Origin: Capsulimonas corticalis
GTDB taxonomy: Bacteria; Armatimonadota; Armatimonadia; Armatimonadales; Capsulimonadaceae
Reading direction: 5' to 3'
Length of the DNA stretch: 64,000 nucleotides
Assembly: GCF_003574315.2 (NCBI RefSeq)
Contig: NZ_AP025739.1
Span: 5,208,001 to 5,272,000 of the forward strand
Position numbers and translations under genes: made by a program. The notes beneath the pieces are model-generated. The model made no database searches. It worked only from the letters and a program-made list of their open reading frames with translations, and was not told where the DNA came from. Positions 19,211-26,055 of the stretch are shown here, piece by piece. How positions within the stretch are numbered: the stretch's first letter is position 1; each line of letters opens with the position of its first letter.

Positions 19211-20659
19211 TCAGAAGAGCCGATCGGGGTCCGTATTCGTGTTGGTGTTCGCCAGGCGCCGCGTGGTCGACTTGATCCGCTTGAGCCGAACGGTGTCGCC
19301 GCCGCCGCTCTTGCCGATCGTCGCCATCTGCTGCTCCATATCCTGCGCCAGGTCTTTTTCGCCGAGCTTATGCAGCTGCTTGGTCGCGGCGCCGAGCTTA
19401 TCCTTGGCCAGCTCGAAATCGCCGCGCTCCTGAGCGCGCTGCGCCTCGCGCTCGTACTTGTAAACCGTGAAGCGATCGACAAGATCCATCACGGGCGCAT
19501 TGACCAGGGCGACTTTATCTCGGTCGCTGGTGAACTCCGCCGTCACAACGGTCTTCTCATTGCCCTTGCCGCTGCCGGTCACGGCGCTGGCGTAGGACCA
19601 GGTCAATTGGATCTCGGCCACCATATGCTGGCCCGGAGAGCTGTACGCCGGAATGAACTGCACCAGGACGCCCACGGGGGCGGCGCTGGAGACGTCGCCG
19701 ATCCGCGCGCGAATCCAGTCATCTTCGGTGTAGATCTCATCGAACAAGCTCATGGACGGGCGAACCAGGAAGGCTTCCTTGACCATGGCGCCTTCGAGGC
19801 CGCGCACCGCCATGTACATATCGGTGACGGCGACCGCCTGAAGCGAGGTGACTTCGCGCTTGAGACACTCGACCAGCTCGGTCGTGTCGGCGGCGTAGTG
19901 ATATTCACCGCGCGAGTTGTCGGCGATCCGGATTAAAAACTCTTCGTCAAACTCCTCGCCGATCCCGATCGTGGTGATCGCGTATCCGCGCTCCTGAACG
20001 TCGGTGACGCGCTGGAGTGTGACGGCGGGGTCCTGAACGATGCCGTCCGTAATCACGATCAGACGGTTAATGCTATACGGCGACGTGTTGCGCGCGAGCG
20101 TCTCGCCGGCCTGCGTGATGGCGTCGGCCATAAACGTTCCGGTCCCAATGTCCACGCCGAGACGCTGCTCGCGCAGGGCGTCCAGGTTTTCGAGACATCG
20201 GTTCGGAAAGGCGCTCCAGTCCTGATCGCCGAACAGCGTGTGCAGCCGGTCCGCGAAGATGACCACGGAAACGCGGTCCGACGGCGTCAGCGTATTCAGC
20301 AGCTGTTTGATGGCCTGGGTGGCGAGCGCCATGGGGGTGACGGCGGCGGCGCGCATCTCCTTAAGCGTCTGACCTTTCCAGTAGACCGCGTTGCGATTGT
20401 CGGCTGAGCCGCGCTCGATCTCATCCCGGGAGATGGCGAGCCCCATCCAGTATTCCTTTTCTTCGTCCGTGAACTGGAAGTGGTGCATCGTGGCGGAATC
20501 GTCGAGCACGATCACCAGATTCAGCGGCGGGCGATTGGCGCCTCCACTGTCTTCCACCGGCTGAATATCCAGCAGGGCGTAGTAAGGCTCTTCCAGATGC
20601 GTGGCGCTCGGAATGAATGGGTGACTAAGAGACAAGCGGACATTTAAATTACTGCTCAC
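19211..20659 (-). CDS. von Willebrand factor A domain protein
   Basis: A 482-residue protein without signal peptide or membrane helix, so probably cytoplasmic. The VWA domain spans about residues 45-260, with a MIDAS metal site DDSAT (53-57) where DxSxS/T is expected, GTGTF supplying the threonine, and ITDGIVQDP supplying the later aspartate. The C-terminal third is beta-rich, then helical with EAQRAQERGDFELAKDKL, a TPR-like hairpin. Such proteins often act with MoxR ATPases or TerD-type stress systems; neither is nearby. A GGAGA site precedes the ATG. The TPR gene follows in the same direction. Confidence 0.88.
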   Translation of the reverse strand: MSSNLNVRLSLSHPFIPSATHLEEPYYALLDIQPVEDSGGANRPPLNLVIVLDDSATMHHFQFTDEEKEYWMGLAISRDEIERGSADNRNAVYWKGQTLKEMRAAAVTPMALATQAIKQLLNTLTPSDRVSVVIFADRLHTLFGDQDWSAFPNRCLENLDALREQRLGVDIGTGTFMADAITQAGETLARNTSPYSINRLIVITDGIVQDPAVTLQRVTDVQERGYAITTIGIGEEFDEEFLIRIADNSRGEYHYAADTTELVECLKREVTSLQAVAVTDMYMAVRGLEGAMVKEAFLVRPSMSLFDEIYTEDDWIRARIGDVSSAAPVGVLVQFIPAYSSPGQHMVAEIQLTWSYASAVTGSGKGNEKTVVTAEFTSDRDKVALVNAPVMDLVDRFTVYKYEREAQRAQERGDFELAKDKLGAATKQLHKLGEKDLAQDMEQQMATIGKSGGGDTVRLKRIKSTTRRLANTNTNTDPDRLF

Positions 20660-20788
20660 GAAAGCGCGTCTCCTTCGGACATTTTACAATACACTATATT
20701 TCGCCCAGATTCACGCTTTGTCGGCAAATTTCCTGCTTATTCTGCGAAAAAGTATGCCTGGACGGTAAATTCGGGCGCCATCGGCGCG

Positions 20789-20818
20789 TTGACTTCGTCT
20801 CCAGCCAGATGCTACAAT
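20789..20818 (+). promoter_or_regulatory. Promoter of the riboswitch-purH transcript
   Basis: TTGACT at 20789-20794 and TACAAT at 20813-20818 are separated by 18 bases. The riboswitch begins about 40 bases downstream. Confidence 0.8.
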
Positions 20819-20857
20819 ACACTCGCAGCTCTTGGCGATCATGCCGGAGCGTCCATT

Positions 20858-20937
20858 GGAGGTCGGCGCGACTGGCGCTGGCGGGGAGCTAACCCCGATG
20901 AAACGCCGACCTGAGAATTCCGCCGTACGCCTGGGCA
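20858..20937 (+). ncRNA. ZTP (pfl) riboswitch
   Basis: The aptamer binds ZTP/ZMP, the signal that accumulates when 10-formyl-tetrahydrofolate is short. An outer stem AGGTCGGCG (20860-20868) pairs with CGCCGACCT (20904-20912). Inside it are the conserved GACTGGCG (starting 20870) and GGGGAGC (20883-20889). After a linker comes the 3' conserved element CGCCTGGGCA (20928-20937). These three conserved blocks in this order define the pfl motif. It lies in front of purH, whose AICAR transformylase uses that cofactor. The 3' block is also one arm of the terminator, so ligand binding should prevent termination. Confidence 0.9.
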
Positions 20938-20981
20938 ACCTGTCAACAAAAACTGTTGCGCGGTATGCCCAGGCGTTTTTT
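20927..20981 (+). terminator. Riboswitch-controlled terminator before purH
   Basis: ACGCCTGGGCA (20927-20937) and TGCCCAGGCGT (20966-20976) form a perfect 11-bp stem with an inner CAACA/TGTTG hairpin, followed by six Ts. The left arm is the conserved 3' element of the ZTP aptamer, so the two structures exclude one another. Confidence 0.92.
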
Positions 20982-21032
20982 GCTGTGAGCCGCGCTATCT
21001 GTGGGACCTAATCTACGAGGAGTGATCAATCC

Positions 21033-22616
21033 ATGCGTCGTGTAGAACGAGCGTTATTAAGTGTATCGGATAAAACCGGGTTAATCGATTTTGCCCGGGG
21101 GCTGTCGGAATTGGGCGTTGAGCTGATTTCCACCGGCGGAACGGCGAAGGCGCTGGCGGACGCCGGTTTGCCCGTCAAGAACGTCTCCGACGTCACCGGC
21201 TTTCCGGAGATGCTGGAGGGACGGGTGAAGACTCTGCACCCGATGATCCACGGCGGCCTGCTCGCCGACCGCTCCAAGCCGGAGCACATGAGCAAGATCG
21301 CCGAGCACGGCATTTTGCCGATCGACATCGTGGTCGTAAATCTTTATCCCTTCGCGGCGACCGTGGCCAAGCCCGGCGTCACCTGGGAGGAAGCGATCGA
21401 GAATATCGATATCGGCGGCCCGTCGATGGTTCGCTCTGCGGCGAAGAACCACGCGGCCGTCGCCGTCGTGGTCTCGCCGTCGTCTTATGATGGCGTTCTG
21501 AACGAGCTGCTGCGCAATGACGGCAAGCTGGAAGCCGAGACCCTCAAGCGCCTTGCCGGCGAAGCGTTCGCGCACACGGCGGCCTACGACGCGACCATCG
21601 CGGCGTATTTCGCCAAGAAGCTGGGCGAGGAGACCGAGAGCATTCTTCCCGCCAAGCTGACTCTGAGCTTCGAGAAGGCGCAGGATCTTCGCTACGGCGA
21701 GAACCCGCACCAGAAGGCAGCCTTCTACCGCGAAGCGCAGGGCGGGCAGGGCGTCGCCTCCGCGCGCAAGCTGCATGGTAAGGAGCTCTCGTTCAATAAT
21801 ATTTACGACCTGAACGCCGCCTATAACCTGGTGCAGGAGTTCGCCGGCGAGAAGGATCCGACGGCGGCGATCATCAAGCACACCAACCCATGCGGCATCG
21901 CGGTCTCGACCACGCTGGCCGACGCCTTCACGAAAGCCCGCGCCGGCGACCCAATCTCCGCGTTCGGCGGCATCCTCGCCACGTCCCGCCCGATCGACGC
22001 CGCCACGGCGGAACTGATCACCGGCAAGAACACGTTCTTCGAAGCGATCATCGCGCCGGGCTACGACGAAGACGCCTTCAAGATCCTGACCGAAAAGAAG
22101 CAATGGGGCGCGAACCTGATTCTTCTGGAAGCGGAGTTCGGCGCGGAGGCGGCGGGCGAGAATATAGACATCAAGCGCGTCTCCGGCGGCATTCTGGTCC
22201 AGACCGAGGACAAGCACGCCGTTGGCCGCGCGGATCTCACGACGGTTACCCGGCGTGGACCGAGCGACGCCGAGATCGCGGACTTGCTGTTCGCCTGGAA
22301 AGTCGTCAAGCACGTCAAATCGAACGCCATTGTGATCGCAAAGGATCGCCAGATCGTCGGCGTCGGCGCGGGACAGATGAACCGTGTCCAGAGCGTGCGC
22401 CTCGCGGTTGAGCAGGCCGGAGACAAGGCCAAGGGCGCCGCGCTCGCGTCCGACGCGTTCTTCCCGTTCGCGGACGGCCCTGAAGCGGCGGGCATCGCCG
22501 GCGTCACCTCGATCATCCAGCCCGGCGGCTCCAAGAAGGACGGCGAAACGACCGAAATGGCGGACAACTACAATATCGCCATGGTCTTCACCGGCCACCG
22601 CCATTTCCGCCACTAA
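21033..22616 (+). CDS. purH: Bifunctional AICAR formyltransferase / IMP cyclohydrolase
   Basis: Performs the last two steps of purine synthesis: it formylates AICAR with 10-formyl-THF, then closes the ring to IMP. The 527 residues are standard. The N-terminal MGS-like cyclohydrolase domain shows ALLSVSDKTGLIDFA, ISTGGTAKAL and GRVKTLHP. The transformylase domain shows DLRYGENPHQKAAFY, KHTNPCGIA and SDAFFPFADG. A GAGGAG site lies ten bases before the ATG. Expression should be controlled by the ZTP riboswitch upstream. A terminator follows the stop, making purH a single-gene unit. Confidence 0.97.
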   Translation: MRRVERALLSVSDKTGLIDFARGLSELGVELISTGGTAKALADAGLPVKNVSDVTGFPEMLEGRVKTLHPMIHGGLLADRSKPEHMSKIAEHGILPIDIVVVNLYPFAATVAKPGVTWEEAIENIDIGGPSMVRSAAKNHAAVAVVVSPSSYDGVLNELLRNDGKLEAETLKRLAGEAFAHTAAYDATIAAYFAKKLGEETESILPAKLTLSFEKAQDLRYGENPHQKAAFYREAQGGQGVASARKLHGKELSFNNIYDLNAAYNLVQEFAGEKDPTAAIIKHTNPCGIAVSTTLADAFTKARAGDPISAFGGILATSRPIDAATAELITGKNTFFEAIIAPGYDEDAFKILTEKKQWGANLILLEAEFGAEAAGENIDIKRVSGGILVQTEDKHAVGRADLTTVTRRGPSDAEIADLLFAWKVVKHVKSNAIVIAKDRQIVGVGAGQMNRVQSVRLAVEQAGDKAKGAALASDAFFPFADGPEAAGIAGVTSIIQPGGSKKDGETTEMADNYNIAMVFTGHRHFRH

Positions 22617-25239: not shown

Positions 25240-26055
25240 ATGTCTCAAAACGTCCGCGCCTCAAAGCTCCGAGGCTTTACACTCATTGAATTGCTCGTTG
25301 TGATCGCTATTATCGCCATTCTTGCCGCCATCCTCTTCCCCGTCTTTGCCAAAGCCCGCGAAAAGGCGCGTCAGACGTCCTGCGCCTCCAATATGAAGCA
25401 GCTTGGCCTAGCCTTTATCCAGTACACCCAGGATTACGACGAAACCATGGTTCCGCGCAACAATGGCCCCAGCGGGGAATTTTCATACCTGGATATTCTC
25501 CAGCCGTACGTTAAGAGCGGCGTCGTTACGCAATGTCCCTCGAACCCGGAACACAACTATAAGACCTGCTGTCAGCCCAACGATTCCAACAGTAAATCCT
25601 ACGTTTCTTATGGCGCCAATGCAGCTAAGCGCTATCCAAAGGACGCAAATGGGAACTATTCGGGGCCTTTGGGCGGGGCAACGGGACCGTTCCTTGATAC
25701 TCCTGTCGCAATTGCTAGCTTTCAATCGCCAGCCCAACTGATTGCTCTGCTCGAATCGACCTCAATGTTCACGGACTTCGATCCGAATGTGACAGGAGGA
25801 TTCAACGCATGGGATCAGCCGACGCCAAATCGCCCCGATGTTGGTAATCTGTTCGCCGGTCACACCGGCATGGCGAATTTCCTGTTTATCGATGGTCATG
25901 TCAAGGCCATGAAACCCCTGGCGACGCTCGATCAGGTCAGCGGCGGCTCCGGTCAAACGAATCTCTGGCTCTCTGACGGCAGTAATTACGGCACTGCGCC
26001 CGGCCAGCCGGCGAAGACGCTGAGCGATTCTCAGAACGTGTTTTGGAAGTCTTAA
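25240..26055 (+). CDS. Prepilin-type secreted protein (DUF1559-like, H-x9-DG)
   Basis: A type II secretion pseudopilin-like protein of 271 residues. The type III signal [11 protein letters not shown] places cleavage after Gly12, with Phe13 at +1 and Glu17 at +5. A hydrophobic helix follows, then [29 protein letters not shown], whose parts are typical of the large families in Planctomycetes and Armatimonadota. The C-terminal H-x9-DG motif has His208 and Asp218-Gly219 (FIDGHVKAM). Such genes are often present in dozens of copies. Function is unknown, but a surface or secretion role is likely. It has its own promoter and terminator. Confidence 0.93.

Follow-up and report, generated by a model that had tools for sequence, protein, structure and literature searches.

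Within the 64,000-nucleotide stretch of the Capsulimonas corticalis genome analyzed here (the window), purH lies downstream of an intergenic gap at 20660-21032. Because the upstream neighbor, which encodes a VWA-domain protein (19211-20659, minus strand), is divergent, this gap carries the leaders of two genes. The features on the purH side are as follows.

20789..20818, plus strand: sigma-70-like promoter, TTGACT-18-TACAAT, its -10 element preceded by TG (consensus scan, 10/12 matches)
20858..20943, plus strand: ZMP/ZTP riboswitch aptamer (RF01750; covariance-model match)
20860-20869 with 20903-20912, plus strand: P1, top pair C.A (pairs mapped from the cmscan alignment)
Within 20860..20912, plus strand: J1/2, carrying GGCG at 20874-20877 (cmscan alignment)
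20883-20886 with 20893-20896, plus strand: P2 (cmscan alignment)
20920..20938, plus strand: P3 including the loop, its core formed by 20922-20924 paired with 20934-20936 (cmscan alignment)
20927..20981, plus strand: intrinsic terminator (-31.1 kcal/mol; 0/2000 shuffles; also present in relatives including G002 and G001)
21018..21022, plus strand: ribosome-binding site AGGAG, 10 nt 5' of the ATG at 21033 (sequence reading)
21033..22616, plus strand: purH, AICAR transformylase/IMP cyclohydrolase, 527 aa (TIGR00355, Pfam)

The product of the open reading frame at 21033-22616 scored 694.7 bits against TIGR00355 (cut-off of 528) and contains the Pfam domains AICARFT_IMPCHas (PF01808, 1.1e-119) and MGS (PF02142, 2.5e-27), identifying it as a full-length bifunctional PurH. 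Two libraries therefore agree on the gene named by the initial annotation of this DNA. The start codon lies 90 nt past the end of the aptamer, which places the RNA in the purine and one-carbon gene context of its family. The consensus scan for promoters found one candidate, where 0.3 were expected from shuffled sequences, and we infer that 20789-20818 acts as a promoter. In the genus-mate G002, the equivalent position reads TTGACT...TACAAA.

The aptamer was assigned by cmscan against Rfam release 15. RF01750 (ZMP/ZTP riboswitch, pfl motif) matched 20858-20943 on the plus strand over its full length (model positions 1-86 of 86) with 58.5 bits against a gathering score of 39, and the E value was 6.2e-7 for a search space of both strands of 64 kb and 4227 families. 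No other Rfam match in the window reached its gathering score, and the whole 7,645,051-base genome contains no second RF01750 match. At an E threshold of 0.5, the only further Rfam matches in the window were STnc310 (16960) and ncS54 (57342), both below gathering and read as chance. The predicted fold of 20858-20986 was more stable than that of shuffled sequences (z of -3.52), with 2 of 200 shuffles equally or more stable. The initial annotation had called a ZTP riboswitch here and named a covariance-model search as the check; the result, 19.5 bits above the gathering score, bears it out.

The three conserved blocks of the pfl motif that it had reported were all recovered: GACTGGCG at 20870-20877, the P2 hairpin together with a purine-rich strand 3' of it, and CGCCTGGGC at 20928-20936. 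The arrangement is that of the family, a P1-J1/2-P2 helix-junction-helix with GGCG and a P3 with a CGCC loop. The loop bases CGCC at 20928-20931 are complementary to GGCG at 20874-20877 and are predicted to form a pseudoknot with them, a pairing that we take to be the one used throughout the ZTP riboswitch family. Four aptamer pairs are nonstandard: P1 ends at its top in C20869.A20903, U20873 faces U20899, and both outermost positions of P3 have C.A. The C.A and U.U mismatches depart from the RF01750 consensus and are specific to this lineage.

These departures raise the question of whether the aptamer has decayed, keeping a recognizable fold with weak ligand binding, so that the terminator would only attenuate purH constitutively. 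The top-of-P1 C.A and U20873.U20899 are both present in G002 as well, which is compatible with such a loss. However, the match exceeds the gathering score by 19.5 bits, GGCG and CGCCTGGGC are both intact, and the U at the place of the U.U pair and the AA of the post-P2 strand also occur in other aptamers of the phylum. Moreover, 78/86 aptamer columns are identical between the window and G002, compared with 147/202 for upstream DNA. Decay is therefore very improbable, and we conclude that, judged by its sequence, the ZTP riboswitch at purH is genuine, intact, and ordinary.

Downstream, the outer arms of the terminator form 11 perfect pairs, ACGCCTGGGCA (20927-20937) with TGCCCAGGCGT (20966-20976), and TTTTT (20977-20981) follows directly. 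An inner bulged hairpin (20938-20965) fills the 28-nt stretch between the arms, and the terminator hairpin alone has a predicted energy of -31.1 kcal/mol. A simple terminator scan of 20600-21100 listed none; it overlooked this hairpin because its rule demands a loop of 3 to 8 bases and there are bulges here. When the 89 bases downstream were dinucleotide-shuffled 2,000 times, no shuffle gave a stem of at least 11 pairs with a T run, and 47 gave such a stem when the T run was not required. The last conserved aptamer block, CGCCTGGGC, doubles as part of the left terminator arm, so the mapped stem upholds the earlier claim that the 3' block serves as one arm of a perfect 11-bp terminator. Terminator pairing excludes P3 and the pseudoknot. 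When the RNA was folded stepwise without the pseudoknot, P1-P2-P3 persisted to approximately 20967 and the terminator appeared from 20970-20973 onward.

We therefore consider it very likely that the purH leader contains a ZMP/ZTP-sensing transcriptional ON riboswitch. Computed support comes from the match to the aptamer model, from pairings that exclude each other, and from gene identity and conservation; the ligand, the direction of control, and the physiological trigger are what we infer. RNA polymerase would start just 5' of the aptamer. A shortage of 10-formyl-tetrahydrofolate would cause the AICAR nucleotides ZMP and ZTP to accumulate, and their binding to the aptamer would stabilize P3 as well as the pseudoknot between GGCG and CGCC. 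Displacement of both by the invading strand at 20966-20976 would then be blocked, no terminator would form, and purH would be transcribed. Without ligand, the 11-bp terminator would capture the CGCCTGGGC block and transcription would end in the T run.

Comparison with relatives showed that G002, whose PurH is 96% identical across the 470 residues compared, retains the aptamer, the terminator, and purH; its terminator 3' arm is TGTCCAGGCGT, with pairing maintained via G-U. RF01750 RNAs were found in 4 of the 7 family genomes searched, the source genome included. Another member of the family, G006, has two ZTP aptamers (L136:1585-1668 and L132:1517-1631), one of them preceding glyA and the other, which has an inserted arm, preceding purH. 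Across the phylum (Armatimonadota), 52 of 291 genomes contained 54 RF01750 copies, a count made with the stricter filters used for more than 40 genomes, so that weak copies may be missed. Full-length PurH is encoded downstream of 37 copies, a transformylase-only PurH relative of 6, GlyA of 5, a Pfl-like protein of 2, and a DUF1559 prepilin-like protein of 2, with the non-PurH classes resting on Pfam searches of one to two examples each and otherwise on sequence similarity. One further copy is at a contig end (G037) and one is a duplicate 0.9 kb upstream of another copy. Thus, purH, a transformylase-only relative, glyA, or pfl follows 50/54 aptamers.

The transformylase-only relatives (386 to 392 aa) follow the RNA in G195, G194, G223, G224, G241, and G222 (L006-L008, L010, L012, L024). 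The N-terminal MGS domain is absent in the two examples scanned, and these proteins are presumably stand-alone AICAR transformylases. The duplicate is in G021, where near-identical aptamers at L121:1464-1556 and 2392-2488, with 835 nt between them, lie upstream of purH. In the first of them, the pseudoknot block has changed to CGCTTTGGC. Small open reading frames come after this copy, one of which (123 aa) had no Pfam match; from its sequence, the copy looks like a decaying duplicate.

A uniform rule (at least 6 pairs, an arm beginning close to either the CGCC block or the end of the aptamer, and a T-rich tail) identified a terminator after 25/54 phylum aptamers, compared with a mean of 7% in shuffled controls (20 shuffles per locus at 53 loci, G037 at a contig end being omitted for too little downstream DNA). 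For 24 of these 25 aptamers, the arm begins between -4 and +3 relative to the CGCC block. Because 29/54 aptamers fail this rule, termination is probably not the sole expression platform in the phylum. Some purH leaders extend just ∼28 to 35 nt beyond the aptamer (G017-G021, G177), and the phylum probably has versions that act on translation as well. The same two observations could suggest that the window RNA acts chiefly on translation, by masking the ribosome-binding site, and that its hairpin is incidental. Against this, the AGGAG at 21018 sits 37 nt past the T run, outside both structures, and the stem with its T run was never attained by chance in the 2,000 shuffles. We regard a chiefly translational action at this locus as scarcely credible, less so even than decay of the aptamer, and retain the transcriptional ON switch for the window purH.

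The two prepilin-like cases belong to one genus in the same order as the window genome. In G014 (L149:8030-8151, minus strand) and G015 (L150:8093-8215, minus strand), a ZTP riboswitch with an inserted arm lies directly before a DUF1559 prepilin-like gene. Each genome has one RF01750 match, also at E values up to 1, and these matches score just 3 to 5 bits above the cut-off. The aptamers, which carry an extra arm of ∼30 nt, share 106/123 columns (86%); the DUF1559 coding sequences share 685/843 (81%), and the 150 nt of upstream DNA share 41/209. One compensatory change separates their outer P3 stems (TGCCCTG/CGGGGCA versus TGTCCTG/CGGGACA). TATAAT is found immediately 5' of both aptamers, and the distance to the DUF1559-gene ATG is 26 nt in G014 and 36 nt in G015; neither aptamer has a terminator by the rule. 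The DUF1559 gene encodes a prepilin N-terminal motif and is followed in both genomes by an M14 carboxypeptidase gene, Pfam having been run on the G014 pair.

The purH genes of G014 and G015 are elsewhere, with no RF01750 match within 1.5 kb (L140, L141). Among G025 genes, the one most closely related to the prepilin-like gene (68% identity) has no RF01750 RNA nearby (L153), and G025 has such an RNA at purH. Because purH lacks the RNA in G014 and G015, and the G025 RNA is at purH and not at the prepilin-like gene, the riboswitch seems, from these arrangements, to have moved from purH to the DUF1559 gene in this genus. It is possible, though we hold this tentatively, that the sole ZTP riboswitch left purH and, with its own promoter before the DUF1559 and M14 genes, places a cell-surface or secretion protein under control of the Z nucleotide. 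Prepilin-like matches number 68 in G014. DUF1559 genes are common in Planctomycetota, and a search of six genomes from that phylum gave no RF01750 match, a sample too small to yield a base rate for riboswitches next to prepilin genes. The window also encodes a DUF1559 protein (25240-26055, plus strand) whose N terminus carries a prepilin methylation motif, of the same kind as the riboswitch neighbor in G014 and G015; the Rfam scan of the window gave no RF01750 match near it. If true, the prepilin case would matter more than the purH case because the regulon, as described in the available portions of the literature, suggests no such target, and our literature search did not find the ZTP riboswitch linked to pilin or DUF1559.

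The window element follows what has been described for its family. The available text of PMC2864571 gives purH, glyA, and pfl among the partner genes of the pfl-motif family, and PMC7266159 credits the proof of the ligand to Kim et al. 2015. Unusual partners such as moeA also exist (PMC9481103). ON-switch logic has been published for the family (PMC2864571, PMC10085676, PMC7337938), in which P3 and the pseudoknot give way to an invading terminator strand and the Z nucleotide blocks this displacement (PMC10085676, PMC7337938). The ON-switch reading of the initial annotation, in which low folate turns on purH, gains support by analogy, since the terminator here overlaps the pseudoknot/P3 block as that logic predicts. 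Terminator blocking as an ON mechanism is thus already published, and the purH-leader element agrees with it in every feature testable from sequence.

Our literature search found no paper on the ZTP riboswitch together with Armatimonadetes. The textbook folate-stress circuit would extend to another lineage with its expression platform intact, and the purH leader offers an additional natural sequence for strand-displacement studies; the view of how this riboswitch class works is unchanged. Like the Clostridium beijerinckii pfl and Thermosinus carboxydivorans switches, as described in the available text of PMC10085676 and PMC7337938, the element appears to be of the transcriptional ON form with a terminator strand that displaces P3 and the pseudoknot. 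It differs from both in the inner bulged hairpin of its terminator and from the C. beijerinckii switch, which is named for pfl, in that the gene here is purH.
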